From Bacteroidetes bacterium GWC2_46_850 (GTDB taxonomy: Bacteria > Bacteroidota > Bacteroidia > Bacteroidales > Dysgonomonadaceae), in NCBI GenBank assembly GCA_001768325.1, contig MENQ01000024.1:124001-188000 (forward strand): DNA of 64,000 nt, given 5' to 3'. Positions 10,853-46,024 of the stretch are shown in pieces. The translations under genes and the position numbers were made by a program. The notes under the pieces are model-generated. The model ran no database searches. It saw only the letters and a program-made list of their open reading frames with translations, and had not been told where the DNA came from. How positions within the stretch are numbered: the first letter of the stretch is position 1; every line of letters starts with the position of its first letter.

Positions 10853-10877
10853 GAAGCTAATTATCTTAATTTGAGTA

Positions 10878-11892: not shown

Positions 11893-11895
11893 TTT

Positions 11896-12246: not shown

Positions 12247-12267
12247 CAACCAGATATCCAAACAAAT

Positions 12268-12298
12268 AAACCGCCGGTTGTTTCTGCATCGGCGGTTT
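12268..12298. terminator. Hairpin after panD
   Basis: Arms AAACCGCCG (12268-12276) and CGGCGGTTT (12290-12298) with a 13-base loop follow the panD stop by about 20 bases. There is no clear T-run, so termination strength is uncertain. The right arm overlaps the first possible TTG start of the MATE gene. Confidence 0.5.
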
Positions 12299-13634: not shown

Positions 13635-13664
13635 GATTTTCATGTATCTTTAACCCCTTAAATA

Positions 13665-17623
<3,959 letters not shown>

Positions 17624-17829
17624 TCGAGTGCTTAATTTCCGATAGACGGCAAAAGTAGCGGTTTTCGGCCTAAAACCCAATCATTGGTCTTTCTTTTTTG
17701 GAATTTTAAGATAAACCCTTTCGGTTTTAAAAATACGGGATTTTATTCAACGAAACTTCTGAAAAAGTGTTATAATTGTGTTATATTTCGGAATATTGCG
17801 GAGAGTAGGAAAATGCTAAATTTAATCAT

Positions 17830-18425: not shown

Positions 18426-19802
<1,377 letters not shown>

Positions 19803-19809
19803 TTAACAC

Positions 19810-21015
19810 TTACTCAGAAAAGAGGCGACCCCTTGCAATCATGCATGCGCCAATGATACCGGTTTTATTTTTCAATTTGGAGGATACAATTTTTGTGTCT
19901 TTGTTGACCAGGTTGAGTGAATATTTCCGGACGGAGCTGCGGATGGGCAACATGATAAATCCCTCAGTCTCGGCTACCTGTCCGCCTATGACGACCAGTT
20001 CCGGGTTAAAGATGTTGATAAGGCCGGCGATGTATTTTCCCAGTTTGTATCCCACCTCTTCCACGATTTCTATGCACAACGGATCTTCCTGGTTGGTTGC
20101 TTTGATGATGTCGGTGAGGGTGAGCTTGTTTATATCTTTCACCATTTCGGTGAGGATGGTACTTTCGCCATTGGCCACACGTTCAAGTATGTTCCTGTGA
20201 ATTGCAAGGCCGGAAGCTTCTGTTTCGAGGCATCCCTTTTTACCGCAATGGCAGATGATCTCATTCTCGAAGATGGGAAAATGGCCGAATTCGCCCGAGA
20301 ATCCCGATTTGCCATAATAGGGTTTGCCATCGATGATGATTCCGATGCCGAGGCCCCAGGAGACATTGACAAAGATCACGTTCTGTTCTCCCTCTACCGC
20401 ACCCTTCATGTATTCGCCATAGGCCATGGCGCGGGTATCATTGTCGATTCCCACGTTATAATTCAGTTTCTTGGTCAGTATTTCACTGATCGGGTGTTCG
20501 CTGAAATAAAAACTGCTGTAGCTGTAACCCGATTCGGGATTCACCCGACCTGAAATATTGAGGTTGATGTTAAAAATCTTCTGTTTGAGTTCACCCGTCC
20601 TGTCGATGAAGTTCTGGATGTGCCCGCAAAGCACGTCGAACGACTCCGGTGTACTTTCATAGGTATAGGAGATTCCCATCTGGTTATCCACGATGTTTCC
20701 GGTAAAATCCATCAGTGCGATATTCAGGTGGTGACGGCTCATGTCTACCCCCACGAAATAAGCAGAGGAAGGTTTTAACCCGTAAACAATAGGATGTCTG
20801 CCTCCCGGCGTGTTGATCTTGCCGAACTCGGCAATCAATCCCTGGTCGGTAAGTTCGGCAATGAACTTGGTGACGGTTGGTACACTTAATTCAAGTCCTT
20901 TGGCCAGTTCCGAAATTGTGTCATTTCCGGTAGTAATAAAATGAGTGATAATGTCCTTCTTTATTTGGATGTTTTTCGGACTTTTATCGCTTTTCAAAAA
21001 AAAGTTTTTTACCAT
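19810..21015 (-). CDS. ROK family transcriptional regulator
   Basis: 401 residues. The N-terminal ~70 form a winged HTH (DTISELAKGLELSVPTVTKFIAEL). The rest is a ROK sugar-kinase-like domain with GVDMSRHHLNIALMD (phosphate loop region) and the zinc-binding signature CHCGKKGCLETEASG near residue 250. The architecture is that of NagC/XylR-type repressors that sense a sugar or amino sugar. It is divergent from hppA across 328 bases that contain a 21-base palindrome. There is no sugar gene adjacent, so the ligand is unknown. Confidence 0.9.
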   Translation of the reverse strand: MVKNFFLKSDKSPKNIQIKKDIITHFITTGNDTISELAKGLELSVPTVTKFIAELTDQGLIAEFGKINTPGGRHPIVYGLKPSSAYFVGVDMSRHHLNIALMDFTGNIVDNQMGISYTYESTPESFDVLCGHIQNFIDRTGELKQKIFNINLNISGRVNPESGYSYSSFYFSEHPISEILTKKLNYNVGIDNDTRAMAYGEYMKGAVEGEQNVIFVNVSWGLGIGIIIDGKPYYGKSGFSGEFGHFPIFENEIICHCGKKGCLETEASGLAIHRNILERVANGESTILTEMVKDINKLTLTDIIKATNQEDPLCIEIVEEVGYKLGKYIAGLINIFNPELVVIGGQVAETEGFIMLPIRSSVRKYSLNLVNKDTKIVSSKLKNKTGIIGACMIARGRLFSE

Positions 21016-24755: not shown

Positions 24756-24915
24756 GTCATAAGACAGCAACCGTCTGTCACCCTCAACATAAATCACCGA
24801 AGTAAGACAACCGGAGGGTAGTCATAAGACAGCAACCGTCTGTCACCCTCAACATAAATCACCGAAGTAAGACAACCGGAGGGTAGTCATAAGACAGCAA
24901 CCGTCTGTCACCCTC
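24756..24915. repeat. 65-bp tandem repeat, about 2.5 copies
   Basis: A 65-base unit starts at 24756 and again at 24821, and its first 28-30 bases recur at 24886. The copies are identical. The first 28-30 bases match the 3' coding end of the DUF438 gene, so the array is a tandem duplication of that end with 37 following bases. It is not a CRISPR, because both 'spacers' are the same. The duplication changes the C-terminus of the neighbouring protein. Confidence 0.95.
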
Positions 24916-26115
24916 CAGCTTACGCAGGTGGGTGATGTCCTGTGTCACTTCTAGCACGCCGAGGTACTCGCCCTCTTTTCCACGTACGGCATAATATTCT
25001 ATCACAATAAACCGCTCTTGTTGAAATCCCGAGATCCAGAACATGGCCTTGCTCTCTTTGCCGCTTTTGAAATCTTTCAGAATCTGCTCCACCACGTGCA
25101 CGCTACCGGGTGGGTGACACATACGCACATCGCGGCCGATGATGGAGCGGTTTCGCTCGAACACCCTGTTGGGGCTGTGCGAGAAGAACCGTACTTTGTC
25201 GTCCTTGTCCACGAAGGTGATATCGAGGGGTAGATGCAGAAAGAGTGCCTCCAGCTCGTCGGTATTGAAAGCGCCCGAAGAAAGCCTGATGCCATCTGAC
25301 TTCGCATATTCCTGCTTTTCCACTTTCATACCCTGCGGATGCCATTCCTCTTCCGGATCATATAGGCAATATCCGAACTCGGGCGTCTCCAGATACACCC
25401 TGTACCACTCCTCTTCCTGGAGTGTATCCATGGCCATGGGAAAAAGGATCTCCTCCTCCTTCATGATCATGCCAGCGATCATCTCCACGGCATAGTCCAG
25501 TGCGGGCAGACCGGTTGCACGGAATGTGCCGGCCGATGAAGCCGGGGAGGTGAGCACCTCGTGCGCCTTATCCAGCAGCTCGCGTGTCTCGTCGTGCTTG
25601 CCCCACATCACCTTGGGAGGGCCTGTGATAAGATGTTTCTCCAGGAAGGGAAAAAGCAGATACTCCTTGCGCTTGTAATGCTTGTCGATGTCGGAGAAGT
25701 TGTTGAAGAGGGTGCGCAGCTGCATCAGGTAACCGGGTAGCTGGGCATCGTTGATGTCTGCGAACTTCTTTTTGATCTCTTTGTAGGCCTCAATCTCCTT
25801 TTCCAGTGCACGGTTCTCCTGCCGGAAAGTGTCTATAGGGTGTCCCGCAGGAATCTCCTTCGCTCCTCGCAGATCGATGCTCCCGTCGAGTACCGCCGTA
25901 TGCAGATCACAGAAATCCAGTATCTCCTCTTCGGTGAGTGCGTTGCTGTTAATCAGTTCCTGCTCCACTTCCACCACCTCGTTGTAAGGAATATTTTCCA
26001 GTGTGCTGATCAGATGGCGGCGCAGCAGGGCCGGGTTTCCTCCGTTATGCAGTTCAAGAAGGAGGTGTTTTAGTTGCTCCTTGCGCTGTGTTGCATTGTT
26101 GATAAATTCACTCAT
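24859..26115 (-). CDS. DUF438 / hemerythrin / PAS protein
   Basis: 418 residues. An N-terminal DUF438 domain (about 1-80) is followed by a hemerythrin-like HHE region (about 135-235; KHYKRKEYLLFPFLEKH, MWGKHDETRELL, MIMKEEEILFPMAMD) that can hold a di-iron or oxygen/NO-reactive site, then a PAS-type domain (about 290-405; FVDKDDKVRFFSHSPNRVFERN). Such proteins are found next to hcp in anaerobes, and a role in sensing or scavenging NO or oxygen is inferred. It begins 15 bases after the hcp stop, in one operon. The last residues SYDYPPVVLLR come from the 65-base tandem repeat: without it the frame would read SYDPQ and stop. Confidence 0.85.
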   Translation of the reverse strand: MSEFINNATQRKEQLKHLLLELHNGGNPALLRRHLISTLENIPYNEVVEVEQELINSNALTEEEILDFCDLHTAVLDGSIDLRGAKEIPAGHPIDTFRQENRALEKEIEAYKEIKKKFADINDAQLPGYLMQLRTLFNNFSDIDKHYKRKEYLLFPFLEKHLITGPPKVMWGKHDETRELLDKAHEVLTSPASSAGTFRATGLPALDYAVEMIAGMIMKEEEILFPMAMDTLQEEEWYRVYLETPEFGYCLYDPEEEWHPQGMKVEKQEYAKSDGIRLSSGAFNTDELEALFLHLPLDITFVDKDDKVRFFSHSPNRVFERNRSIIGRDVRMCHPPGSVHVVEQILKDFKSGKESKAMFWISGFQQERFIVIEYYAVRGKEGEYLGVLEVTQDITHLRKLEGDRRLLSYDYPPVVLLR

Positions 26116-31983: not shown

Positions 31984-33647
31984 CATATCTTTATCACTTT
32001 ATCGGCCACCTGCTCGAACTCTTTCAGGTGTGTGGCCATCAGGATGGCGATGCCCGGGTGTTGTGCCTGAATGTTTTGGAATATGGCAATTGCGTTTTCC
32101 GTGCTGATGCCCGCCGTGGGCTCATCCACCACCAGCAACTGGGGTTTCTTGAGGAGCGCCTGTGCCAGCAGCAGTTTCTTCCGCTGTCCACCGCTCAGTG
32201 TTTCGCCGTTCTCACCCAGCCAACTCCCCAGTCCTTCCGGCAGGGAAGCACGCCACGAAGCCAGGTCCACCGTCTCCAGCGCCCTGTCTATCTCCTCGTC
32301 GGCATAGCCTTCGAAGTTCTCACGCAGCGTGCCGGTCAACAGATACGCTTTCTGGGTCACGTAGATGGTTTCAGGCACCGGGAGGTGGCGCAACTCATCC
32401 GTTCCATTCCAGGTCAGTGTTCCCCCCTCCCTGTACTCCGGATAGAAGAGGCTGTTCAGCAGGGTCGTTTTGCCCTTGCCGGTCTCCCCGTAGAGGGCGA
32501 CCCATTCGCCCCTGGCGATCTCCAGCGACACCGGCCCCACACGTACCGGAGTGCCGGGTACTACCGCTTCAATGTTTGCCATGCGCAGCTGCTTTAATGG
32601 GTCGGAGACAGCGACTACCTCTGCCGGTCCAGCACTCCCGCCTGCTCTCTTGGTCTCGCCTTGTTCATGGCTTGCAGCGACCACTTCTGCCTGTTCAACC
32701 CCTTCATCAAAAATCGATTTTATATCCCTTACTTGCTGTTCCACCGCACTCTTTTCCGATTTCCCGGAGAAGAGCATCTCGGCCAGCTCTGCTTGGGCCA
32801 TGATGCCAAAGAAGATGCCAATGGCGAGGGATGCGTCCAACTGCTGCTGACCCGAATGCCAGAGGAGGAAGGCGGCGATATAGCTGAAGCCGAGGCCGGC
32901 AATGAGCTGCAGGTAGAAGGAGTTGAACTGGATCTTGTTTTCCAGTCGTTCCAGCTGCTGCCGCATCTGCTCGTGGCGGTCAATCGCTTTCTCCTCCAGG
33001 TTGTATTTCGAGATCTCTATTCTCCCCCTGAAGCCCTCCATCAGTATCTGGTGTGTCTCCTCACGCACCGCTTTCAGCTGTAGGTGCAACTGTTTGTTCC
33101 TGCGGAAGGTCAGCTGAGGCACCAGAAACAACAATACTGTCGATGAGATCAGAAACTCGATGGCGATCACCTGAGAGAAGAATGCCACGAAAAGGGTATA
33201 GATGACGATTGTCAGAATCAGTGCTGCAAAAGGCAGCAGCCACAGCAGGATGTGATTCAGTATCTGGTCGGTGCCGTGGGTGCTGTTTTCAAGGAGCGAT
33301 GAGTTGTTGCTCACCTGTTTGCGGAAGTAGGGTAGCCGGGCGACCGACGAAAATATTTTTAATTGCAGGCTTTGCTGCACGCTCAGTGTGGTCTTGTGGT
33401 TCTCCAGCCGCTCGAAATATCGGGTGGCGGTACGCAGCAGCGACAGCAGCCGGATGATGGAGGAGGGGATAAGGTAAGCGAATGCCGTGTTAGCTGTAAC
33501 AAATACCACGCTACAGATGGCCAGGAACCATCCCGAGAGGGCTGGCATGGTCACGAAGGCCACCGTCCAGAGGGCCAGCAGAAGAAATCCTTTCCGCCAT
33601 TGTCCCCTGAAGGGTCGCAGAATATGGGTCACCATAAACTCACGCAT
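31983..33647 (-). CDS. cydC: Thiol reductant ABC exporter subunit CydC
   Basis: A 554-residue fused permease/ATPase. Six membrane helices take up about residues 1-310. The ATPase has Walker A GETGKGKTT, signature LSGGQRKKLLLAQ and Walker B LLVVDEPTAG. With CydD it exports glutathione or cysteine from the cytoplasm and is needed for cytochrome bd assembly in known systems. It starts 8 bases inside the cydD stop (ATGCGTGA overlap), so it is coupled. No cydA or cydB is in the window. Confidence 0.9.
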   Translation of the reverse strand: MREFMVTHILRPFRGQWRKGFLLLALWTVAFVTMPALSGWFLAICSVVFVTANTAFAYLIPSSIIRLLSLLRTATRYFERLENHKTTLSVQQSLQLKIFSSVARLPYFRKQVSNNSSLLENSTHGTDQILNHILLWLLPFAALILTIVIYTLFVAFFSQVIAIEFLISSTVLLFLVPQLTFRRNKQLHLQLKAVREETHQILMEGFRGRIEISKYNLEEKAIDRHEQMRQQLERLENKIQFNSFYLQLIAGLGFSYIAAFLLWHSGQQQLDASLAIGIFFGIMAQAELAEMLFSGKSEKSAVEQQVRDIKSIFDEGVEQAEVVAASHEQGETKRAGGSAGPAEVVAVSDPLKQLRMANIEAVVPGTPVRVGPVSLEIARGEWVALYGETGKGKTTLLNSLFYPEYREGGTLTWNGTDELRHLPVPETIYVTQKAYLLTGTLRENFEGYADEEIDRALETVDLASWRASLPEGLGSWLGENGETLSGGQRKKLLLAQALLKKPQLLVVDEPTAGISTENAIAIFQNIQAQHPGIAILMATHLKEFEQVADKVIKI

Positions 33648-35286
33648 AGGCCATCTGTTCTCCCCAGTTTAAGTTAAGCACCCTGTGGGCCACTTCTTCG
33701 AACCGCTGTTCATGGGAGGCCACAATTACCAGTCGTTCCCCTGCCATCTTCACAATCTCCTGCAGGATAACCTCTACCGTGCCGGCATCCAGGTTGGCTG
33801 TAGGCTCATCGAGGATCGCCACCGGCCGTGGGTGCATCATCATTCGTGCCAGGGTTACCAGTTGTCGTTCACCGCCGGAAAGCTGTCTTCCGTTGTGAGT
33901 TAAAACGGTATCCCATCCATCCTCCTTTTTTGCGACAATCTGCTGCATGAATTCGGGAAAGGATTCTTCGCCGGTCGTTTCCCGTTGCAAGAGGAGGTTA
34001 TAGTGTAGCGTACCGTCGAAGATAAACGGAAACTGGTTCATGTAGGTCGTATTCGCTTTAAGCCAGTGGCGGGACCAAACGTTATCCCGTCTGTTGACCG
34101 AAACGGTCCCTTCGTGTGCGGCAAGACTGCCGGCGCATATTTTGAGGAGGGTCGATTTTCCCGATCCCGAGATGCCTTTCACCAGCACTAGTCCTTTTTT
34201 GGGAAATTGTTGATGAATCTCGTGTAGCACCTTCACCGGCGAGTCGGGATAAGCAAAGCTGAGGTTGCTGATTGTGATATGGTCAAATGTTTCATCCAGA
34301 TCTGTAGGTGGTGTTTCCGCCGTGCGGGTAAGCAGTGGCATCAGCAGGTCGGCCGCAGCCAGTGCCCTGTTCCGGTCGTGATACGCACCCACGAACTTCC
34401 GGATGTAAAAGAAGAAATAGGGCGTGATGGTAAGCAGGAACAGCGCCGTGCCAAAGTCGTACCCCTTGCCGTAGTTAGGGCCGTTCATGATTCCCATCAA
34501 GCTGAAGCCAAGGTAAATGGCGATGGCGGCAATGGCGATGGTGACAAACAGTTCAAGCACTGCCGAGGAGAGGATGGCCACCCGCATCACGCCGATGGTT
34601 GCCTGGTTGAGCTCTTCGCTCTTGCGCGACAAGAAACGGTATTGCGGTAATAGATTGTCGAGGTTGACGATCTCTGTAACCGTTTTCAGCCGGTTATAAA
34701 ATACGGCCGAATATTTCAGGAAAAGTCCGGTATGTTTCTTATGTATTGCTTCGGCTCCAATACCGATGACAGCCATCTGCACGGGGATTACGAAAAGGGA
34801 GACCATCAGGATGAGTGCCACCCATTTTTCCAGGAAGAAGCAGATCACCAGCAGCAGGATGCTCACCACGGCCGTCGCCACGGAATAGGGAATAAAAAAT
34901 GCAAAGTAGGGCTTCAGGTCGTCACTGATTTTGGTCATATACAGCGCGCCGGTGGTGGAGTCGAACCGGTTTTCCCGCATCAACACCGGGTAAAGCTCCT
35001 TTTTGATGCCGGCCACAATGGTATTTCCAGCCCGGTAGTTGGAACGCGACTCGAAGTGGGCGAAAAGGTACCGCCCTGCAAGGAATGCCAGTGCCGACAG
35101 CAGCGTCTTGGGGAGCAGGTTTCCATTGTTGAGCCACGAAGCTGCGAATTCAGACAAATACCAGCTGAAGGCCGCAAAGCTCCCCGCGCTGAGCAGGGTG
35201 AACAGCGAGGCAATGGCATAGGTACTCCTCGCCGCTGCCATTCTTTTGCCGAGCCATCCGGAGGCACTCTGTTGTTTTGTACTCAT
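33640..35286 (-). CDS. cydD: Thiol reductant ABC exporter subunit CydD
   Basis: A 548-residue partner of CydC: an N-terminal six-helix permease domain, and an ATPase domain with GISGSGKSTLL, LSGGERQLVTLARM and VAILDEPTANLD. The frame remains open to 35343, but the promoter at 35341-35371 lies over that part, so the start is the ATG at 35286 (MSTKQQSASG). Assignment of C and D follows order (D first) and general likeness; the two families are similar and could be exchanged. Confidence 0.85.
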   Translation of the reverse strand: MSTKQQSASGWLGKRMAAARSTYAIASLFTLLSAGSFAAFSWYLSEFAASWLNNGNLLPKTLLSALAFLAGRYLFAHFESRSNYRAGNTIVAGIKKELYPVLMRENRFDSTTGALYMTKISDDLKPYFAFFIPYSVATAVVSILLLVICFFLEKWVALILMVSLFVIPVQMAVIGIGAEAIHKKHTGLFLKYSAVFYNRLKTVTEIVNLDNLLPQYRFLSRKSEELNQATIGVMRVAILSSAVLELFVTIAIAAIAIYLGFSLMGIMNGPNYGKGYDFGTALFLLTITPYFFFYIRKFVGAYHDRNRALAAADLLMPLLTRTAETPPTDLDETFDHITISNLSFAYPDSPVKVLHEIHQQFPKKGLVLVKGISGSGKSTLLKICAGSLAAHEGTVSVNRRDNVWSRHWLKANTTYMNQFPFIFDGTLHYNLLLQRETTGEESFPEFMQQIVAKKEDGWDTVLTHNGRQLSGGERQLVTLARMMMHPRPVAILDEPTANLDAGTVEVILQEIVKMAGERLVIVASHEQRFEEVAHRVLNLNWGEQMAYA

Positions 35287-35340
35287 CGATTGCCTGTGAT
35301 TTTTAATTTCCCTTAACTCGGGGATGTGGGTGATGAGGGA

Positions 35341-35371
35341 CAAAGATAGTTATTTTGGATTCCAATACAAA
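35341..35371 (-). promoter_or_regulatory. cydDC promoter
   Basis: Minus-strand TTTG (35371-35368), exactly 19 bases, then TATCTTTG (35348-35341). It is one of the best matches to the Bacteroidetes consensus in the window. Confidence 0.7.
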
Positions 35372-35419
35372 AGCCGGCCGGAGAAGATAGATCGAAATTT
35401 AATTTTAGAAGCAATCCTT

Positions 35420-35449
35420 TTTGTTTCTCAGAAAAATATACTACTTTTG
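35420..35449 (+). promoter_or_regulatory. tRNA-Pro promoter
   Basis: TTTG (35420-35423), 18 bases, TACTTTTG (35442-35449). The tRNA begins 31 bases later. Confidence 0.6.
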
Positions 35450-35480
35450 CATCCGCGAATCACATCCACTCGCAATGTTT

Positions 35481-35555
35481 CGGGGTGTAGCGCAGTCCGG
35501 TTAGCGCACCTGCTTTGGGAGCAGGGGGTCCCAAGTTCGAATCTTGGTACCCCGA
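35481..35555 (+). tRNA. tRNA-Pro (anticodon TGG)
   Basis: A 75-base cloverleaf: acceptor arms CGGGGTG and TACCCCG with discriminator A, anticodon stem CCTGC/GCAGG with loop TTTGGGA (35514-35520), so anticodon TGG at 35516-35518, and T arm with GTTCGAATC. The CCA end is not encoded. It marks the left edge of the AT-richer accessory stretch. Confidence 0.95.
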
Positions 35556-35566
35556 CGTTGAAAATC

Positions 35567-35603
35567 AAACACTTATCTGAATATTCAGGTAGGTGTTTTT
35601 TTT
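35567..35603 (+). terminator. Terminator after tRNA-Pro
   Basis: A 14-pair stem (35567-35580 with 35585-35598, two wobble pairs) around ATAT, followed by a T-run. It ends the tRNA transcript. Confidence 0.8.
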
Positions 35604-35700
35604 GAGAACACACAATTAGCGTATCAGATCACTTTTATTTCCTACTCCGCTGATTACAAATTGCCTCGTTGCTGTAACCCGATTTTTTTAATCATTATTT

Positions 35701-35766
35701 TTAGAAATCTTCATCAAAGTAGTTGCTGGCGAAATTTTCACCGATATTTTGAATGAAATGAATCAT
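35701..35766 (-). other. 21-codon ORF behind the AAA_14 ATPase gene, possible gene fragment
   Basis: ATG at 35766 lies 1 base after the ATPase stop; the frame reads MIHFIQNIGENFASNYFDED and one more residue before TAA. The sequence looks like the beginning of a longer protein (a restriction-methylase-like start came to mind but I cannot support that), so it may be a 5' remnant. No family is recognised. Confidence 0.25.
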
Positions 35767-35767
35767 A

Positions 35768-37003
35768 TTATTCGCCCCAAACATTATTTATTGGTACTGC
35801 TTGTAAATTATTACCTCCAAATCCGCCCAACACATGTTCTCCCGTATACAGCAAAATGCCTTTTTTAAATTTAGGGCCTGCCAATTGGGCTAACTTCTTT
35901 AGACCTTTAAAGTCATCTGGTTTCAAGGACGATTTTGATTTAATTTCGATTCCATAGATCATCTTTTTTTGATCTTCGATCACCAGGTCCACCTCAGCAC
36001 CTTTGTGCATGCTAAAATGCATTAATTTTAATGGGTCGTTGAACCAACTGATCTGTTTCTGGATCTCCATGGCTACAAAATTTTCTACAAAATGTCCTGC
36101 CTGTGTTCGGTCTTGCAATAGGTCGTCGCCATTATTCGCCAGCTGACACAATAAGCCGGTATCATTTAAAAATATTTTTGGGGATTTCACAAATTGCCCT
36201 TCAGCATGGGGAGTCCATGCGGGAATTTTTACGATCATAAAAACCTGTTCCAACAATGCCATATAACGTTGAAAAGAACTGTTCTTGATTCCAGTCAATC
36301 GGGCAATGTCAGACATGTTGATTGTGCTTCCCACTCTCACGCTCAGCAGGTTTAAGATTTTAGGCATGAATATCAGGCCATCAATATTGGCCAGGTCTCG
36401 AATGTCTTTTTGCAGGATAGATTCCATATAAGCTTGCAGCCACTTTGCTCTTCTGCTATCCGAGGTACGGTTTATAACTTCGGGATATCCCCCTCGTCTT
36501 ATCAGTTTAATAATCTCTTCCCAACTCGTAGGAATAGACTTGAAGTTATTCTTGTCTTTGATTAAATTATCCAGGAAAACACTTTTACTTCCAGTTATTT
36601 CATCAACAGAAAATGGCCAAAGCTGGTGTGTTTCGATTCTTCCGGCTAATGAATCTGCTATTTTGGGTTGAAGCATCACATTGGCAGATCCTGTAAGGAT
36701 GATTCTACGATTGCGATTGTCATCAATCAATTTCTTTAGACTTAAAAATAGCTCAGGTGCGCGTTGTACTTCATCAATAATTATATTCTCTCCAATATCC
36801 AACAAGAAACCCATTGGATCTGAATGAGCAGTGGCTAATACCGACGGGTCGTCCAAGGTGACATATTTACCAGAAAAAACTCCATCTTTTAATAACTGTT
36901 GACAAAAAGTGGTCTTTCCGGTTTGCCTTGCCCCTGTTATCATTACCACTGGCGTGTCTTCCAGTGCTTTTGATATCTGCGTATATATAAAACGTTTAAT
37001 CAT
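35768..37003 (-). CDS. AAA_14 / DUF4143 family ATPase
   Basis: A 411-residue protein with Walker A GARQTGKTT (residues 24-32), Walker B-like NIIIDEVQRAPEL near residue 75, sensor ILTGSAN near 103, and a C-terminal DUF4143 (about 200-370) with a PD-(D/E)XK-like end: HKGAEVDLVIED and YGIEIKSKSSLK, where Glu-Asp and Glu-Ile-Lys fit nuclease-fold residues. The family is widespread and patchy in Bacteroidetes and archaea; its task is not known (suspected defence, addiction or mobile). It is lower in GC than its neighbours. A -7 box TATATTTG (37024-37017) gives a leader of only a few bases. Confidence 0.9.
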   Translation of the reverse strand: MIKRFIYTQISKALEDTPVVMITGARQTGKTTFCQQLLKDGVFSGKYVTLDDPSVLATAHSDPMGFLLDIGENIIIDEVQRAPELFLSLKKLIDDNRNRRIILTGSANVMLQPKIADSLAGRIETHQLWPFSVDEITGSKSVFLDNLIKDKNNFKSIPTSWEEIIKLIRRGGYPEVINRTSDSRRAKWLQAYMESILQKDIRDLANIDGLIFMPKILNLLSVRVGSTINMSDIARLTGIKNSSFQRYMALLEQVFMIVKIPAWTPHAEGQFVKSPKIFLNDTGLLCQLANNGDDLLQDRTQAGHFVENFVAMEIQKQISWFNDPLKLMHFSMHKGAEVDLVIEDQKKMIYGIEIKSKSSLKPDDFKGLKKLAQLAGPKFKKGILLYTGEHVLGGFGGNNLQAVPINNVWGE

Positions 37004-37028
37004 GTCTAATTTACTGCAAATATAATAA

Positions 37029-37068
37029 TTTGTGGGTAAATATGGACAATTTTGTGGGTAAAAATGGA
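37029..37068. repeat. Two 18-base direct repeats, 22-base period, before the AAA_14 gene
   Basis: Copies at 37029-37046 and 37051-37068 share 17 of 18 bases (core TTTGTGGGTAAA). They sit directly upstream of the -7 element of the ATPase gene and are about two helical turns apart, as binding sites for one protein would be. Confidence 0.75.
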
Positions 37069-37214
37069 ATTACTTTCGACGTAAAACATGCCCCTGGGTA
37101 ATCGGTGGATTCTGGAAACGAGAGCCACATCTTTATCGACCGAAGTTTCCAACTGTGTCATCAGATAACTGACCACTGGGAGCCGACCCCATCGCGTGGT
37201 GAGCCACTTGTTTA

Positions 37215-38198
37215 TTATGGCGCCAGGAACCAGTATTTCGCGGTTTCATCCGTCGAGAAGAAATTTATCAAAAGATCAGCAACCTTTTTTCTGCCGGACA
37301 TGCTTGGGTGTGTACCGTCTGTTTGGAAATCGTCCCGTACCCAATAAAGACCGTCGCTTCTCGGAGTGGTACCATTGGCCCAAAGATATGGTCCCCAGGA
37401 AAGCCAGGCTGCATTAGGATTTGCACCTGCGAAACTTAATTCGTTGTCTCCGTTGATCTGCTCTTCGATTAACTTTTTTATTGTCCATCCCGTGTACCAC
37501 GCAAAAGGTTCGGGATTTAGTTTTGTTGTGGCGTAACCGGCATAAATCCTGTTGCTTAAATAGACTATTTTTAGGTTTGGAAATTTAGATTTCAACATCT
37601 TCATGACCGATTTGTACTTCATTTTCAATGCGTTGGGATAAGTAACGAAGGAGGTGTCCGAAGGTCCGGCTTCTGCTTCCTTAAACCAGATTATCTGAAC
37701 CTGTGAGGGAGTCAGACCGCCATTGGCCAAACGAGTATTTACAGCGTTCCAATAGGGAGCTTCCGGGTTGTTTATTTTATTAATATCCTGACCTCCCTGG
37801 GCACCGTCGATCAAAACCAGTTTCGGATGTTTGCCAGTGAAAGTTTTCATCTGGTCAATAAAAGCGGATGTCTCCTGGGTGGTGTTCGACATGCCGACGG
37901 ACATCCATACTATTTTACCATTGGCTACGTCTTCGACACCCGATTCATTTAATGGACGAATGAATTTTGAAATTTCAATGCCGGCATTGTTGTGGGCGGA
38001 TGGCCTTTGGTTTGATCCATTTGGGTACAATCCACCTTGAACTCCACGATAAGTTGCACCGTCAAAATCAATTAAAGGAGTAGGGATTGTTATTTCCTTC
38101 TTGACAATAACTTCATCCTCGTTTTTATCTATTCCCTTGTCGCAAGCCGTTAATAGCAGAACAAGGGTAATAAAAAAGAAATAATTCAGGATTTCCAC
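37215..38198 (-). CDS. SGNH-hydrolase-like lipoprotein
   Basis: A 327-residue predicted lipoprotein with a signal ending LLLTAC (cysteine 19). The signal lacks basic residues before the hydrophobic part, so the GTG start at 38198 may not be exact. The C-terminal block QTDGTHPSMSGRKKVADLL has the Asp-X-X-His of SGNH/GDSL hydrolases, and GMSN near residue 105 may be the changed Ser block, so an esterase or acetylesterase for polysaccharides is possible. It follows the GH5-like gene on the same strand, 35 bases after its stop, and probably works with it. Confidence 0.7.
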   Translation of the reverse strand: MEILNYFFFITLVLLLTACDKGIDKNEDEVIVKKEITIPTPLIDFDGATYRGVQGGLYPNGSNQRPSAHNNAGIEISKFIRPLNESGVEDVANGKIVWMSVGMSNTTQETSAFIDQMKTFTGKHPKLVLIDGAQGGQDINKINNPEAPYWNAVNTRLANGGLTPSQVQIIWFKEAEAGPSDTSFVTYPNALKMKYKSVMKMLKSKFPNLKIVYLSNRIYAGYATTKLNPEPFAWYTGWTIKKLIEEQINGDNELSFAGANPNAAWLSWGPYLWANGTTPRSDGLYWVRDDFQTDGTHPSMSGRKKVADLLINFFSTDETAKYWFLAP

Positions 38199-38235
38199 AG
38201 GCTTTAATTATTGGAAATTATTTGTAATTGAACCT
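38183..38235. repeat. Imperfect direct repeat, copy 1
   Basis: 53 bases that share 43 positions with 39434-39486. It spans the start codon of the SGNH-like gene and the stop of the GH5-like gene. The two copies flank the GH5-like gene. Confidence 0.65.
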
Positions 38236-39337
38236 AGTCAGCACCTGTAAGACTTTTTATCACATCCACTTCGTCCTGTTTATAAGGCGTTCCGTCCTGA
38301 TGAAAAATATCATGAAACCAAAGTTTTGGTTGGGCTCCGTCCGGCATAGGGGTGTCCCACGCGTAAATAGTGTTTGTTTTTCCTGAAACCAGTCCCCAGT
38401 TATAAGCTCCAATCTGTTCTCTTTTCAATATCGGTAAAATATCTTTAAACAAACTGTTGCGCGTGCGTGCCATATATTCGGTACATATTAGCGGTTTGGA
38501 AGACAATGATCTTAATGTATCGATATACCATTTGTGATTAATGGAATCGCCATAATTATGATATGTAATCACATCCGAATTTTTAATTTGATAATCAGTC
38601 AATTCTTTCAGATCCCATTTCCACACACCAACTGATAAGGGTTGTGAAGGATTAATCTCCCGTCCCCATTTGAAAACTTTTTCGAGCAAAGGCATACTTT
38701 TGTTTCCGTGATCCGAATTTCCAGGTTCGTTATACAAATCCCACAAAACGATTCGTTTGTCGTTACCAAATGAAGAGAGAATGTCTTTTACGTATTTTTC
38801 CAACGAACCGACCATGCCCGGATTGATATGGATTGAATCTCCCGGATCTTGCACCCATCCCGAGTTGTGGATGCCCGGTTTCGGTTCCGGCTGTTTGCCC
38901 GCCTGGTAAGTAGGGTTCCAGCAATCGTCGAAGAGTACAAAAAGCGTTGAAATACCGTGTTTATCTGCAATGTCCAGGTATTGATTCATCCTGTTTTTAA
39001 AGCCAGTGGTGTCGATTTGCCAGGCCAGATGGTGCAAATAAACACGCATGGAATTAAATCCGATGCTTTGAGCATAGCCCAATTCACGATCAATGGTTTC
39101 GGGATCAAAGGTTTCGGCTTGCCACATTTCAAGTTGATTAATGGCTGTACTCGGAATGAAATCGCTTCCTCTCAGCCAGTCTACACCGTTATACCATGTG
39201 TTTGCCTGTTCATCGGTCCACACTTCACGAATCGGTTTTTCGCTTGTCTCATTCTTTTTTTGCGATTGATTGCACGAAACCAAGGTAATCGCTGTTGCCA
39301 TCACTAACGATAAAAAAAAGTACTTTTTCACATTCAT
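38234..39337 (-). CDS. GH5-like glycoside hydrolase lipoprotein
   Basis: A 367-residue protein with lipobox LVSC (cysteine 22). It has a TIM-barrel cellulase-like fold: FNSMRVYLHHLAW near 95-106, acid/base E204 in WDLYNEPGN, and a probable nucleophile E287 in ICTEYMAR. The pattern fits clan GH-A, near GH5; its subfamily and sugar are not known, though similar genes are often called xylanase. It is lipid-anchored, probably on the surface. It precedes the SGNH-like gene on the minus strand and is AT-rich. Confidence 0.85.
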   Translation of the reverse strand: MNVKKYFFLSLVMATAITLVSCNQSQKKNETSEKPIREVWTDEQANTWYNGVDWLRGSDFIPSTAINQLEMWQAETFDPETIDRELGYAQSIGFNSMRVYLHHLAWQIDTTGFKNRMNQYLDIADKHGISTLFVLFDDCWNPTYQAGKQPEPKPGIHNSGWVQDPGDSIHINPGMVGSLEKYVKDILSSFGNDKRIVLWDLYNEPGNSDHGNKSMPLLEKVFKWGREINPSQPLSVGVWKWDLKELTDYQIKNSDVITYHNYGDSINHKWYIDTLRSLSSKPLICTEYMARTRNSLFKDILPILKREQIGAYNWGLVSGKTNTIYAWDTPMPDGAQPKLWFHDIFHQDGTPYKQDEVDVIKSLTGAD

Positions 39338-39433
39338 TTTTTATTGAATAAAACTAATAACATATTTATTTTTCATTGATTAATTCAGGATTTATTCCGT
39401 GCTTTTCCATAATTTATCCATACAAAAAGAGTA

Positions 39434-39486
39434 AATTCAGGATTTCCACAGCCCTTGATTATAGTGTACTATTTGTGATTGAATCT
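39434..39486. repeat. Imperfect direct repeat, copy 2
   Basis: See 38183-38235. On the minus strand it contains a copy of the SGNH-like gene's start region (GTG, then a frame reading EILNLLFLYG before TAA), so it is a duplicated 5' end. A shorter match of 12 bases lies at 39382-39393. Confidence 0.6.
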
Positions 39487-39841
39487 ACAATGTGAAATAA
39501 CCAAAGATGTGACCGATGCAAATTTAGTTTAAATTTTTCTTTTTATTTACAACTTTTCAATAATCATGCATTTCTCATGCAATGCAAAGTCTGTATCTAC
39601 CTCTTCAAAAAATCATAGCCAACAATAATAATTGGAACCCGTAATGCATTTGGATCATTATTTGTTTTAATATTCCGTGAAATTTATCGTACTTTATTAT
39701 AAAATAACTCGCCGTATTTCCTGATTACGATATCGAAAAGCATCGTAACGATCCCGTCTATCTGACCATCGAGAGAGCGATGCTCAAGTGCGCATCCACT
39801 CAGTAATCAAAATGCAAAGCGTGTCGGGACTTGTGATTGGA

Positions 39842-39973
39842 CTAGAAACTACCGGAACGGATGATCAGGCGTGCGTTTAGATTCTCAATCCGGTTATCAT
39901 TGGAGGTAACCGGTTTTCCGTTGATTTTCACGTTTTCCAGTATCACCTCATGCACGGTGTGTTTATCGCCATT
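39842..39973 (-). pseudogene. C-terminal remnant of a beta-helix or GH28-like protein
   Basis: A 43-codon minus frame, bounded by TAA upstream and a TAG stop, reads HEVILENVKINGKPVTSN and ends RLIIRSGSF. This looks like the final turns of a right-handed beta-helix carbohydrate-active protein. No 5' part is found nearby. The assignment is from the style of the repeat only. Confidence 0.4.
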
Positions 39974-40021
39974 TTAAACAACAGCTTGTCGGTGCTTTCC
40001 GAATTGATGAAATTTCGCATG

Positions 40022-40108
40022 CTTCCAATCGCACCATACTGGAATTGAAATGATTGCACTTGAGTCAATCGATTTAGAGAATCAGATCCTTCCAATCGCA
40101 CCATACTG
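40022..40108 (+). CRISPR. Minimal orphan CRISPR array, two repeats, one spacer
   Basis: A 30-base repeat at 40022-40051 begins CTTCCAATC and ends GGAATTGAAAT; ATTGAAAT is the known 8-base 5' handle of many type I-B and type III repeats. A 37-base spacer follows (40052-40088), then a second repeat whose first 20 bases (40089-40108) are identical and whose rest has diverged, as in a terminal repeat. Orientation is therefore plus, with the leader to the left. No cas gene is in the window. Alternatively, a chance repeat, but the length, spacing and handle fit well. Confidence 0.7.
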
Positions 40109-40308
40109 CTATAATTACAACCTTACGTGATTATCCTCCCGAGTAATCAAGCAATATTAGAATTATACAAACGCATGGCCTCCTCGGTGCTTCGTGATAT
40201 TGTAACGGTATTTAATCGGGGTAGCTGACCGGTGCGGTCAGCAAAACTACCTGATTGGAGATTGGACTGAAATATTGGTTGAACTTATTCTTGTCAAAAA
40301 AACAGAGA

Positions 40309-41628
40309 CTACGGATCCGGGACCGGTAGCAGCACCACCACCATATCCATCACATTGGTGCGGGTATTGCCGGTGATGATATGCCCTCCGGCCTGTTGGA
40401 AAAAGTGGTAGGAGTCGAACCGGGAGAGGTGGTCGAAAGCATCGACCTGTTTCTTCCGTGCATCTGGGAGGGTGCGACTGTCCACCACTGCGCCTGCCGC
40501 ATCGGTGGGACCATCGGTGCCGTCTGTACCGGCACAGAGGATGGTGATCTCCCTGGCGGAATCTATATGCGTAGCCAACCGGAGTGCCAGGTGTTGGTTG
40601 CGTCCGCCCAGCCCTGTGCCGCTCACCTGCAATGTGGGCTCCCCGCCAAAAAGGAGGCAGAGCGGTTTAGCGAGATTTTGATACGGAGCCTCTTCAATGG
40701 TGTGGAGAATAAAATCTGTCACAACGCTGTAATCCCCCTGCAGTGCATCGGTGATGATGTGTGCTTCAAAACCGAGCTCCCCGGCCCTGCGGGCCGCTGC
40801 CTCGAGCGCCAGCCGGTTGCTTCCGACAATATGGTTGTAGACGTGACTGAAGACAGGATCTCCCGGTTTCGGTGTCTCCGGAAGAAGAGCTGCCGCCCCC
40901 CGGCGCAGATGATCCAGTAGCATTGCTGGAAAACGATCCCCGAGCGCATATTTCCCTATTACGGTCAGTGCATCGGCGAAGGTGCTGCTGTCGGGAGCTG
41001 TGGGACCGGAGGCGATGACATCCAAAGGGTCGCCAATCACATCGGAAAGAATCAGCGTGATCACCGTGGCGGGAGTAGCTGCCTTGGCCAGCTGTCCCCC
41101 CTTCACCCCGGAGAGATGCTTGCGGACGGTATTGATCTCGGAGATGTCGGCGCCGCAACGTACCAGCAGGTCACTGGCCTGTGTCAGATCGTCGAGGGTG
41201 GCTCCTTCAGGGACATCGGCCATCAGTGCCGAGGCACCACCGGAGATCAGGCAAATCACCAGATCATCTTTCTCCGCCCGGCGGGCCAGCGCAAGCATCC
41301 GCCGTGTGGCCTCCACCCCGGCAGCATCGGGTAACGGATGCCCCGCCTCGGTAAGGGTGAGACGGCTCAGCATGCTCCCATGTCCATACTTGGTCACCAC
41401 AAGCCCATCGGTGATGAGGTCCCCCATGATATTCTCCGTCTCCTTCGCCATCAGTGCCGCCGCCTTGCCCGCCGCCAGCACATATACCCGTCCGTCCGGG
41501 GAAAGTGGGTAGGTGCGGCCTGCTATATGCAGCAGGCTGCCCTCCCGGTTGACCTGTTGCGCTATCAGCCTGTCGGGGAGAACGTGTTCCACGCCAGCAA
41601 GAAATATCTGTTCTGCGATTTTTCTCAT
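40309..41628 (-). CDS. Glycerate 2-kinase, MOFRL family (DUF4147)
   Basis: A 439-residue cytosolic kinase that phosphorylates glycerate at C2. The N-terminal half is DUF4147 (VLAAGKAAALMAKETE, LISGGASALMADVPEG), and the C-terminal half has the MOFRL domain (LLFGGEPTLQVSGTGLGGRNQHLAL, and CAGTDGTDGPTDAAGAVVD near residue 370). It begins 11 bases after the permease gene on the minus strand, so the pair takes up and uses glycerate, or a related sugar acid. Confidence 0.92.
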   Translation of the reverse strand: MRKIAEQIFLAGVEHVLPDRLIAQQVNREGSLLHIAGRTYPLSPDGRVYVLAAGKAAALMAKETENIMGDLITDGLVVTKYGHGSMLSRLTLTEAGHPLPDAAGVEATRRMLALARRAEKDDLVICLISGGASALMADVPEGATLDDLTQASDLLVRCGADISEINTVRKHLSGVKGGQLAKAATPATVITLILSDVIGDPLDVIASGPTAPDSSTFADALTVIGKYALGDRFPAMLLDHLRRGAAALLPETPKPGDPVFSHVYNHIVGSNRLALEAAARRAGELGFEAHIITDALQGDYSVVTDFILHTIEEAPYQNLAKPLCLLFGGEPTLQVSGTGLGGRNQHLALRLATHIDSAREITILCAGTDGTDGPTDAAGAVVDSRTLPDARKKQVDAFDHLSRFDSYHFFQQAGGHIITGNTRTNVMDMVVVLLPVPDP

Positions 41629-41639
41629 GGCAGGTTACA

Positions 41640-43028
41640 TTATAATAGAAAAAGGGATAGTAGCCAGACACAGCAGAAAGTGACCAGGCCCATCACGATG
41701 GTGGCTGATGAATAGACCTTCAGCGTGGTATTGGAATCGATACCGGAGAAACGGGAGATGACCCAGAAGTAGGAGTCGTTGGCGTGCGAGATCATCATCG
41801 AGCCTGCACCCATCGCGAGCATGGTAAGTATTTTCCCGTTTTCGGAGTCCAGTCCCAATGCGGACAGCATGGGCATTATCAGTGAGGCGGCCGTGATGAT
41901 GGCCACCGTGGAGGAACCCTGCGCTGTCTTCAGGATGAAGGCGATAAGAAAGGGTATGGCAAGCCCCAATCCCGTTTGCAGAAAGAAATCACCGGCGAAG
42001 GCTCCTACGCCCGTTTCCTTGATTACCAGACCGAACATACCACCGGCTCCCGTGACAATGAGGATTGGGCCCGCTTTCTCAATTGCCGACTCAAGCACGC
42101 CATTAATCTCTTTTATCGACTTGTCTTTCAATAAAAACAACGATAGGAATACGCCGATCAGCAGGGCAATGATGGGTTGCCCGAGAAATAACAACGATCT
42201 GGACAAGAAGTGAATATCGGACACATTGAGTACCGTGAGCAAAGAACCCACCGCTATAAGAAAAAGAGGGACGGCGATAGGTAGTAACGAAAGACGGACC
42301 GGGGGCAATTGATTTTCGGCCCGGGTTTCTGTTTCGGGAAATCCTGCCCGGGAAAATGCTGTTCCAGAATGTTCTATTCCGGGAAGTGCTGTTTCCAGGC
42401 GGACCGTTCCATCATAAGATGCTTTTCTTGTTTGCCACCGAATCCAAAAGAAAGCGGACAGTGCGGGTGGAACGGCAAGAACTGCCCCCAGCAATATCAA
42501 CAGTCCGATATTGGCATGTAAAATACCTGCTGCAGCTAACGCCCCGGGATGGGTGGGGATGAGACAATGAACTGAATAGAGTGAAGTGGCCAGCACAAAG
42601 GCAATAAAGGGCAGCGTAATTCGGGCTTTGGAACTGAACGACTTTGCCAGTCCGCTCAGTATGATATAACCGGAATCACAAAATATGGGCAACCCCACAA
42701 TAAAACCTGTAATTCCCATGGCCGAAACGGCTTTACGGTGGCCTGTGCGGGAAAGGATATAATTTGCAATGGCGACTGCGCCACCCGTCTTTTCGAGTAT
42801 GACGGCAATAACGGCTCCGAAAATAATAAGAAACCCGATGGATGCCATTGTACTGCCAAAGCCCTGTTTCAGGATTTCAACCACTTCTTTACCGGGAAGA
42901 ACAGCCAAAGCCAATAATAAAGCGACGAGAAACAGGGAGGCAAATGCATTGAGCCTGGTTACAGATGTGAGTATGATGATCAGTATGATACTCAACAGTA
43001 CAAAGATGGAAATGGTAATGATACTCAT
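41640..43028 (-). CDS. GntP family permease (gluconate or glycerate type)
   Basis: A 462-residue polytopic protein with about 12-13 membrane segments and GntP blocks such as VLEKTGGAVAIANYIL, GLPIFCDSGYIIL and KTAQGSSTVAIITAASLI. It is a proton-coupled symporter of sugar acids. With a glycerate kinase directly downstream (11 bases), glycerate is a more likely substrate than gluconate, by inference. Confidence 0.9.
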   Translation of the reverse strand: MSIITISIFVLLSIILIIILTSVTRLNAFASLFLVALLLALAVLPGKEVVEILKQGFGSTMASIGFLIIFGAVIAVILEKTGGAVAIANYILSRTGHRKAVSAMGITGFIVGLPIFCDSGYIILSGLAKSFSSKARITLPFIAFVLATSLYSVHCLIPTHPGALAAAGILHANIGLLILLGAVLAVPPALSAFFWIRWQTRKASYDGTVRLETALPGIEHSGTAFSRAGFPETETRAENQLPPVRLSLLPIAVPLFLIAVGSLLTVLNVSDIHFLSRSLLFLGQPIIALLIGVFLSLFLLKDKSIKEINGVLESAIEKAGPILIVTGAGGMFGLVIKETGVGAFAGDFFLQTGLGLAIPFLIAFILKTAQGSSTVAIITAASLIMPMLSALGLDSENGKILTMLAMGAGSMMISHANDSYFWVISRFSGIDSNTTLKVYSSATIVMGLVTFCCVWLLSLFLL

Positions 43029-43039
43029 ATCATCTTTGT

Positions 43040-44005
43040 TTATCTGCGTCCGCTACTGGTACTGCGGGTCGTTGTTTCACTCCCGGAACTGCGGGTGTTG
43101 GGCGTGCTGCTACGGGTTTCGGTCGTCCTCCCCTCCCCGGAGCTTTCGCGCATCTGCCGTTCTACCCGTACGGGTTGGCCGATGGAACCACCATAGTAGT
43201 TGGTCTCCTCTGAACGGCTGGTGCTTGTGCGCTGCGTTGCGGGTGCTGTAGGCGTTTGTGTCGTATTTGCGCGGCTGTTAGCTGTCCGGTCGGCAGCTGT
43301 GCGGTTCGTGGTCGTCCTGCCGGTGGTTGTCCGGTTGATTGCCGGAGTGGCATCACGGCTGGTGATTCGTCCCTCGTCGGCATTCCCGAGACGTCTTACA
43401 TCTTCCGGCGACGGGGTCACACGTTGCGATACACGGCGGGTGACCTCCTGCTGTACGCGCCGGTCGTCGGTAGAGTATCTGAAGTTACGTCCTTCGCGAA
43501 TGCTTCTGTCTCCCCATTCGCGGGCGCGGTTCCGCTCGTTTTCCTTCCAGTAGACGGCCCGTCGCCCGTTTTCGTTGTAGGCCCTTACATACGGGATATT
43601 ACTGTAGTCGTAGTAGTCAATATAATAATAGCGCGGGTAATGTGAATTATAATATTGATGATGCATCCACGGATTGTACATGTTGCGGTCGACGATGACC
43701 ACAAATGCATTCCGCAGGTTGAAGGTGGAGTAGAGGGAAGGTAGCGTTTGTGCGAAAAGCCAACGCCCGTTGTAGAGATAAACGAAATTACGCGTGGCCA
43801 GATCGTAGTATGTCTCAATGTCGGGAAAATAGTAGTAACGTGTTCCTGCGTAATAATCAGGAGCCCACGCCGGATTATAATCGTAATAATTGTCGTAATA
43901 ATCATTTCCGCCCGCACCGTAGTATGATGTTCCACAACCGGTGAAACCGAGCGCCAGGATGAATGTTGTGAGGACGATGGCTAATTTTTTGGTAATTCTT
44001 TTCAT
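43040..44005 (-). CDS. Tyrosine-rich lipoprotein with a low-complexity tail
   Basis: A 321-residue lipoprotein with signal MKRITKKLAIVLTTFILALGFTGC (given as residues 1-24) and lipobox FTGC. Residues about 25-140 are rich in Tyr, Asn and Asp (DYYDNYYDYNP). The final 150 residues are Thr, Arg and Ser-rich and disordered (TTTGRTTTNRTAADRTAN). I do not recognise a family. The start at 44005 is preferred to 44029. It starts on the minus strand upstream of the permease gene, 11 bases before it, but its link with glycerate is unclear. Confidence 0.75.
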   Translation of the reverse strand: MKRITKKLAIVLTTFILALGFTGCGTSYYGAGGNDYYDNYYDYNPAWAPDYYAGTRYYYFPDIETYYDLATRNFVYLYNGRWLFAQTLPSLYSTFNLRNAFVVIVDRNMYNPWMHHQYYNSHYPRYYYIDYYDYSNIPYVRAYNENGRRAVYWKENERNRAREWGDRSIREGRNFRYSTDDRRVQQEVTRRVSQRVTPSPEDVRRLGNADEGRITSRDATPAINRTTTGRTTTNRTAADRTANSRANTTQTPTAPATQRTSTSRSEETNYYGGSIGQPVRVERQMRESSGEGRTTETRSSTPNTRSSGSETTTRSTSSGRR

Positions 44006-44132
44006 TTCATTCGGTTTTAAATGGTTCATTTGGCTTTTTACCTGTCCTTTTGACTGAGAAAAGCGGGAATGTTTAGTATGGATCCGGTTTTATATCTGAA
44101 TGTCGCGGAAAGTATGGATATGTCCTCGTAAT

Positions 44133-44633
44133 CTATTGCACAATCTTGGCGAAATCCTCCAGGTTCTCATCCACATACTGGGCAATGAGGGCGGTTTCCT
44201 CCTCTTCAATATAGAAAAACTTCTCTTCCAGCTCGTCGAACTGCTCGAAATCGACGTACATGGCGGTGAATTCCTCGTCGGTAGTTTCCCGCTCCAGCTC
44301 CGCACGATGTGCATCAAAAATTTCCTTTGCCTTGTAGAGTATCTTTGAAACGCCTTTGGCTCCCATCATCTTCAGAGCCTTGGCGGTGGGGTTATCGAAG
44401 ATATAACCCCCGTAACCATTCTGGATCAGTTGCACAAAGCCTCCTTCGTTCACTTCATCAGAGAAAAAACGATACGCCAGCAACGTATGCTGATAGCCGT
44501 TGAGCTTGTCCATATTTTCTGCCGTGATGTCCCCGCCCAGGGTCTCCAGATAGGCATCGGTAAATACCTTCAGAAATTCGTCCATCCCCTTTTCTGCGGC
44601 TTCGATAATTATCTTCTCCTGAATCTGTATCAT
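44133..44633 (-). CDS. DUF4375 (DMP19-like) protein
   Basis: A 166-residue, acidic, cytosolic all-alpha protein. The blocks FFSDEVNEGGFVQLIQNGYG and GAKGVSKILYKAKEIFDAH are those of DUF4375, related to DMP19, a possible DNA-mimic. It is acidic along its whole length. No partner is adjacent; the function is unknown. It is divergent from the DUF1015 gene. Confidence 0.8.
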   Translation of the reverse strand: MIQIQEKIIIEAAEKGMDEFLKVFTDAYLETLGGDITAENMDKLNGYQHTLLAYRFFSDEVNEGGFVQLIQNGYGGYIFDNPTAKALKMMGAKGVSKILYKAKEIFDAHRAELERETTDEEFTAMYVDFEQFDELEEKFFYIEEEETALIAQYVDENLEDFAKIVQ

Positions 44634-44728
44634 AAGGTCATTTTTTGCGGTCTTTGTTTACAGGAACAAATGTAACTGTTTTTTATTAAATCTCTCTTTG
44701 AAGCTCCCTGTTTTCCGGATAAAATGGC

Positions 44729-44736
44729 TACATTTG
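44729..44736 (+). promoter_or_regulatory. Promoter -7 element of the DUF1015 gene
   Basis: TACATTTG, 47 bases before the ATG at 44783. A TTTG at 44697-44700 is 28 bases upstream, too far for a firm -33. Confidence 0.45.
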
Positions 44737-44782
44737 CGTGAAATACACGGTTAAATAAATTCACGATAAATATAATATTTGT

Positions 44783-46024
44783 ATGAAGGTAAAACCTTTC
44801 AGGGGTGTCCGCCCCCCAAAAGCACTGGTAAGAGAGGTGGCGTCGCGTCCCTACGATGTGCTGAATTCGGAAGAGGCCCGCAGCGAGGCCGAAGGCAACG
44901 AGAAATCGCTCTATCGCATCATCAAGCCGGAGATCGATTTTCCGGTGGGAAAGGATGAACACGACGAGGACGTGTATATGAAGGCGGCCGAAAACTTCCA
45001 CCTGTTCCAGGAGAAGGGATGGTTGCTCCAGGACGAGCAGGAGATGTATTACGTCTATGCCCAGACCATGAACGGCAAGACGCAGTACGGACTCGTGGTG
45101 GGCGCCTCGGTGGAGGATTACATGACCGGCAAAATCAAAAAACATGAGCTTACACGCCGCGACAAGGAGGAGGACCGCATGAAGCATGTGCGGGTGAACG
45201 ATGCCAACATTGAACCGGTCTTCTTTGCCTATCCCGATAACAGGGAACTCAATGAGATTGTTACAAAAACTACAGCACAGCAGCCTGAATATGACTTCGT
45301 GTCGGTGGATGGCGTGGGTCACCACTTCTGGCTGATTAGTGACACTGCGGATATCAAACGCATTACCGAGGTTTTTGCCGAAATGCCGGCCATGTACATT
45401 GCCGACGGGCATCACCGCTCGGCGGCAGCTGCCCTGGTGGGTGCCGAGAAGGTGAAAAATAATCCGTACCATACCGGTGCCGAGGAATACAACTATTTTA
45501 TGGCAGTCTGCTTCCCCGACAGCCAGCTCACCATCATCGACTACAACCGCGTGATGAAGGACCTGAACGGACTCACACCGGCAGAATTTATTCAAAAGCT
45601 GGAGAAAAACTTCACGGTGGAACCCACCGGCACGGAGATACAACGGCCAAAGAACCTGCACAACTTCTCGGTCTACCTCGACGGACGCTCCTTCAGCGTA
45701 ACCGCCAAGCCGGGTACTTACGACGACGGCGATCCCATTGGCCAACTAGACGTGACCATCACCTCCAACCTGGTGCTCGATGAAATCCTGGGTATCAAGG
45801 ATCTGAGAAGCGACAAGCGGATCGACTTCGTGGGAGGAATACGGGGCCTCGATGAACTGAAGAAACGGGTGGACAGCGGAGAGATGGCTGTGGCCCTCGC
45901 CCTTTATCCCGTGTCGATGAAGCAGCTGATGGACATTGCCGACACCGGCAACATCATGCCGCCCAAGACCACCTGGTTTGAACCGAAGCTGCGCTCGGGG
46001 CTTGTAATTCACAAATTGCACTGA
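44783..46024 (+). CDS. DUF1015 family protein
   Basis: A 413-residue cytosolic protein of the DUF1015 family (MKVKPFRGVRPPKALV at the start, ASRPYDVLNSEEAR, and YIADGHHRSAAAALVG near residue 214, which is the conserved core of the family). In Bacteroidetes it is usually downstream of serC-serA, but no serine gene is beside it here. Its activity is not known. Length is normal. Confidence 0.9.
   Translation: MKVKPFRGVRPPKALVREVASRPYDVLNSEEARSEAEGNEKSLYRIIKPEIDFPVGKDEHDEDVYMKAAENFHLFQEKGWLLQDEQEMYYVYAQTMNGKTQYGLVVGASVEDYMTGKIKKHELTRRDKEEDRMKHVRVNDANIEPVFFAYPDNRELNEIVTKTTAQQPEYDFVSVDGVGHHFWLISDTADIKRITEVFAEMPAMYIADGHHRSAAAALVGAEKVKNNPYHTGAEEYNYFMAVCFPDSQLTIIDYNRVMKDLNGLTPAEFIQKLEKNFTVEPTGTEIQRPKNLHNFSVYLDGRSFSVTAKPGTYDDGDPIGQLDVTITSNLVLDEILGIKDLRSDKRIDFVGGIRGLDELKKRVDSGEMAVALALYPVSMKQLMDIADTGNIMPPKTTWFEPKLRSGLVIHKLH

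Follow-up and report, generated by a model that had tools for sequence, protein, structure and literature searches.

A two-repeat CRISPR array in a Bacteroidales genome as the very probable deletion scar of a type I-B CRISPR-Cas locus

How a CRISPR array of only two repeats and a single spacer is to be understood is the question raised by positions 40022-40108 of the DNA analysed here, a stretch of 64,000 nucleotides from Bacteroidetes bacterium GWC2_46_850 (contig MENQ01000024.1, positions 124,001 to 188,000), referred to below as the window. The initial annotation described a repeat of 30 bases, followed by a spacer of 37 and by another repeat, identical over 20 bases and diverged at its end, a form whose coordinates proved exact, and it left two readings side by side: the trailer-end remnant of a lost type I-B or type III locus, or an array dependent on cas genes located elsewhere in the chromosome. 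On comparison with related genomes, principally those designated G031 and G029, we consider that this stub is very probably what a deletion has left of a type I-B CRISPR-Cas locus on the chromosome (Table 1).

Table 1. Features at and around the stub, in window coordinates
Feature	Position	Strand	Basis or remark
Collinear left flank	33578..39390		94.5% over 5818 bases to G031:C2 26000-20184
Intergenic scraps preceding the GH10 gene in G031	39503..39704		two matches to G031:C2
GH10-family gene tail, most of gene missing	39715..39821	+	82% to G031:C2 18937-18829
Frameshifted GH28-family gene tail	39858..40021	-	85% over 165 bases to G031:C2 15379-15543
CRISPR repeat 1	40022..40051	+	intact 30-mer; probably the penultimate repeat of the former array
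Single remaining spacer	40052..40088	+	37 bases, adjoins terminal repeat
Terminal repeat	40089..40118	+	20 identical bases to 40108, last 10 decayed
Trailer-side flank, including the tail of a probable nitroreductase gene in its far part	40109..40258		similar to G029 trailer

Repeat 1 ends in ATTGAAAT, an octamer that is uninformative by itself (two occurrences in the window against 4.45 expected), and the two repeats lie 67 bases apart from start to start. The spacer falls inside the span of 34-37 bases found in relatives (41 spacers in G031, 25 in G029 and 41 in the array L004) and is unique, being found at one place only in its own genome at up to three mismatches. On the usual model of array growth the spacer beside the terminal repeat is among the oldest, such that 40052-40088 would be one of the oldest spacers of its array. 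Both decay of the terminal repeat and the position of the oldest spacer at the trailer end are general features of arrays, and decayed last repeats are likewise seen in G029 and in the locus L006. Folding of 40022-40108 is unremarkable (z -0.40), Rfam returned no match to a structured RNA at E values up to 1 in 39300-40320, and one terminator-like hairpin lies at 39890-39913 within the GH28 tail (0.4 in shuffles). As to the origin of the spacer, the proposed search of phage and plasmid sequences gave no convincing match: blastn against phages with 61 bases including repeat ends and against plasmids with the 37-base spacer stayed at chance level (best E 2 and 0.4, respectively), two back-translated frames and one exact 20-mer each found nothing in IMG/VR, and among the 39 genomes of the genus only the spacer itself was recovered at up to three mismatches.

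The identity of the unit is established by the occurrence of the same repeat elsewhere. In the genome collection the exact 30-mer is present in three stretches, with 42 copies in JAJFTO010000018.1 ('Porphyromonadaceae bacterium isolate bin.24', the DNA of which is identical to that of G031 over the 8000 bases compared), four in JAFGDZ010000068.1 and one in Sunxiuqinia indica, where it is part of a longer array of variant repeats. Since the 30-mer is thus identical to the unit of arrays linked to cas genes, in G031 beside Cas1b and Cas2b, the unit in the window is CRISPR, and the absence of the repeat from every related array, which together with a lack of spacer variation between strains the initial annotation had named as evidence against it, does not obtain. 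Four of the 39 genomes of the genus, the window's own among them, carry the leading 20 bases of the repeat at up to two mismatches, with 2 copies in the own genome, 42 in G031, 27 in G029 and 10 in G037.

Some of these further arrays merit a remark of their own. In Sunxiuqinia indica (L004 4000-6100) variants of the repeat succeed one another and the 30-mer of the window stands at the switch between two of them, as if, judging by the order of the variants, the repeat had been altered stepwise along the array. A relaxed 26-mer is carried by two IMG/VR contigs of 4.1 and 4.7 kb, in six and four copies located at the contig end (L007 1-354 and L008 4427-4669), which are either mini-arrays of viruses or host sequence classed among the viruses. 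The ten copies in G037, of a related repeat, are spread over two contigs without a Cas1 match in an assembly 94% complete; the array (L017, G037:C33:48000-58609) reaches contig ends, and here too the cas genes may have been lost, or they may fall in a gap of the assembly.

What a locus with this kind of repeat and its cas genes looks like can be read from the two relatives. Outward from the G031 array come eight cas genes in the order cas2, cas1, cas4, cas3, cas5, cas7, cas8b and cas6, the best PADLOC models of which (Cas1b, Cas2b, Cas3b, Cas4b, Cas5b, Cas6b, Cas7b and Cas8b) assign the system to type I-B; the Cas8b protein of 649 amino acids matches the PADLOC model and no Pfam or NCBIfam model. 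The array meets the contig start in an assembly 86% complete, so that it numbers at least 42 repeats. This locus shares with the window the identical repeat, the range of spacer lengths and a common left flank including the GH28 gene, and differs from it in possessing a long array, a leader and the eight cas genes, where in the window the repeats number two, the leader is missing and the searches made brought up no cas gene. In G029 the array is preceded by genes for Cas8b, Cas7, an AbiEi-like and an AbiEii-like protein, Cas5b, Cas3, Cas4b, Cas1b and Cas2b, and the contig starts 524 bases ahead of cas8b, so that cas6 and the left flank are not visible. Here the resemblance to the window consists in a 20-mer differing at two bases, the trailer flank and last repeats decayed at the 3' end, whereas the 27 repeats, the seven cas genes seen, the other spacers and the Abi-like genes inside the operon set it apart. 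These Abi-like genes (L016 3542-5163, on G029:C49), by model name a type IV toxin-antitoxin pair, lie between cas7 and cas5 on one strand and have no counterpart in the G031 operon; one testable reading is that the pair guards the cas genes of G029.

The collinearity of 33578-39390 with G031 places the stub at the CRISPR-cas site of that genome. Identity along this left flank ranges from 85 to 99% per 500-base bin, with 85-91% at 33.5-35.5 kb and 96-99% at 35.5-39.4 kb, a step which suggests, from the alignment, that the latter stretch was recently exchanged. Nearer to the stub the scraps of 39503-40021 follow the same order as in G031: 39503-39546 and 39659-39704 match G031:C2 at 20166-20124 and 20120-20075, and the counterpart of the GH10 tail lies inside the open reading frame 18825-20036 (Pfam GH10). 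The scrap 39434-39487 departs from this order: it matches G031 21391-21338 and also resembles window 38173-38236, so that it may be repeated intergenic DNA. In G031 the GH28 gene (Pfam GH28) is intact and sits beyond the cas operon, and in the window the similarity to it stops at 40021, repeat 1 beginning at the very next base. We take this to be the deletion junction, a breakpoint placed by comparison with G031 alone and not with the true ancestor. In G031, base 15379 lies 12.6 kb from the first repeat, beyond which the array extends for another 2.7 kb or more. No leader was found at the array in the window, the GH28 tail abutting repeat 1, and matches of the G031 leader elsewhere in the window are weak (E 0.04 and 0.48). 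An IS4-type gene lies between the operon and the GH28 gene in G031 and no IS gene was seen at the window junction; an IS-mediated deletion is conceivable but not supported. A search of the genus with window 39340-40310, in which mostly the 12 best candidates per genome were scored, gave matches in six of the 39 genomes, which in G001 and G013 amount only to 28 bases in the repeat.

On the other side it is G029 that provides the counterpart. Positions 40087-40258 align at 69% with the array end and trailer of that genome (G029:C49 12447-12614, E 2.5e-9); the terminal repeats align with one another, the last two in G029 being decayed at the same 3' end, and the Pfam assignment of the G029 gene at 12568-13170 is the basis for recognising the tail of a probable nitroreductase gene. 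Further to the right, 44149-45999 aligns with G029 16179-18027 at 80%; the DNA in between, from 40258 to 44149, gave no nucleotide match to G029, and synteny on this side is thus partial. Nothing corresponding to 40109-46000 was found in the G031 assembly, which at 86% completeness decides nothing, and in no relative are both flanks joined to one locus, the left being taken from G031 and the right from G029. The neighbourhoods of glycerate kinase genes in the genus (18 loci) match 39338-40400 only at 40326-40400, inside the gene, and are uninformative on the scar. The decayed genes reported beside the array are accordingly real, namely the GH28 and GH10 tails on the left and the probable nitroreductase tail on the right.

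Since the same repeat stands beside the I-B operon of G031, while the left flank corresponds to G031 and the right flank and decayed repeat to G029, the first of the two original readings, a trailer-end remnant, is supported and its type narrowed from I-B or III to I-B. The ancestor, in window orientation, would have comprised the GH28 gene, a cas operon as in G031 (cas6-cas8b-cas7-cas5-cas3-cas4-cas1-cas2), a leader, an array of the 30-base repeat, the trailer and the flanking gene. By one or more deletions the penultimate repeat would then have come to lie, with its 5' edge, against the interior of the GH28 gene. Lost in this way would be the cas operon together with the leader and almost the whole array, which in G031 coordinates comes to at least 12.6 kb, with more loss further to the left, while a repeat, a spacer and the decayed terminal repeat stayed behind.

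The alternative that survives best, albeit as a very unlikely one, is that the unit functions as an orphan mini-array whose transcript starts from a promoter outside it and is processed and used by Cas proteins acting in trans from other loci of the genome. Repeat 1 is indeed fully intact, the spacer is of normal length, and for truncated type I-B arrays of B. fragilis PMC5704556 considers it possible that proteins of other systems are used. Such proteins should be encoded in the window's own genome (G000, 32 contigs totalling 3.75 Mb, with an estimated completeness of 100%), which was searched for Cas1, Cas6_C and the Cas3 core. Neither Cas1 nor Cas6_C was detected, the same searches being positive in 9 and 5 of 14 control genomes, respectively. 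The Cas3 core (TIGR01587) gave four matches, none over the cut-off, and because all 14 controls contain such matches (six over the cut-off), we read those in the own genome as ordinary helicases. Cas operon DNA (G031 2600-16000 as query) returned four matches, none to cas genes, though distant relatives could escape such a query; two are to the IS4-type gene, one is the GH28 tail beside the stub and one a repeat. Likewise, at up to three mismatches over 20 bases the genome holds no repeat copy beyond the two, there is no leader, and promoter-like sites in 39800-40310 number one against 1.3 in shuffles. Within the scope of these searches the array is thus, as first noted, without cas genes: the genome-wide check proposed at the time finds the repeat only twice and neither cas1 nor a Cas6_C gene. 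The second original reading, an array served from elsewhere, is disfavoured by the lack of Cas1, Cas6_C, operon DNA and a third repeat.

A variant of the deletion itself concerns its agent. The join lies exactly at the 5' edge of a repeat, and if this is not chance the locus's own Cas1-Cas2 integrase could have removed the locus by disintegration or off-target integration, an idea that we regard as highly improbable. The solitary mini-array could also be the older state, beside which the relatives gained a type I-B operon later. The patchy distribution of cas1 in the genus (13 of 39 genomes) would be compatible with such gains, but cas genes and array are found with the left flank of this site in G031 and with its right flank in G029, and the GH28 and GH10 genes, of which only tails are present here, run as long open frames in G031; this speaks for deletion in the window and makes the reverse order of events extremely unlikely. 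We infer loss in the window's lineage rather than gain in the relatives, and the number of events likewise. Finally, that this is a short direct repeat of chance or unrelated origin, in favour of which only the presence of two copies in the genome would speak, has a practically negligible probability, given that arrays adjoining cas genes are built of the exact 30-mer and that the exact 20-base direct repeat exceeds every run at a spacing of 50-100 when the window is simulated 60 times with a first-order Markov model (longest 14 bases, in one of the 60) and hence is not due to chance. At that spacing the only other runs of at least 14 bases in the real window belong to a tandem repeat at 24756-24915, a 65-base unit present 2.5 times at 100% identity, which differs from the CRISPR repeat and spans the 3' end of the open reading frame 24859-26115 (minus strand) and beyond.

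If the stub is a deletion scar, the lack of a leader and of a detected Cas6 implies that it should give no crRNA and drift neutrally, and we take it to be probably inert and silent. As such it constitutes a single clear case in which a type I-B locus vanishes and its terminal repeats stay, the lost part being readable from two relatives, one for each flank. The case also advises caution, in that an orphan array of two repeats, rather than being new or moonlighting, may be the trailing end left by a deleted locus.

In kind the scar is ordinary. Orphan arrays and degenerating CRISPR systems are described in PMC8616872 and PMC5704556. The orphan type I-F arrays of E. coli (Almendros 2016, as summarised in PMC8616872) resemble the stub in being small arrays that persist after loss of the cas genes of their own type, and in that summary they carry anti-cas spacers. 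The window spacer, considered in the same light, matches cas-region DNA of G031 and of G029 at 21 of 37 bases, a value equalled by 150 and 156 of 200 shuffles, respectively, and hence no better than shuffles. In B. fragilis, for which PMC5704556 outlines orphan arrays as well as truncated type I-B loci, some cas genes are kept and type IIIB or IIC systems are present, unlike the window, where the searches made found no cas gene; in common with the window, many type I-B cas genes have been lost there and a short array stays in its usual neighbourhood.
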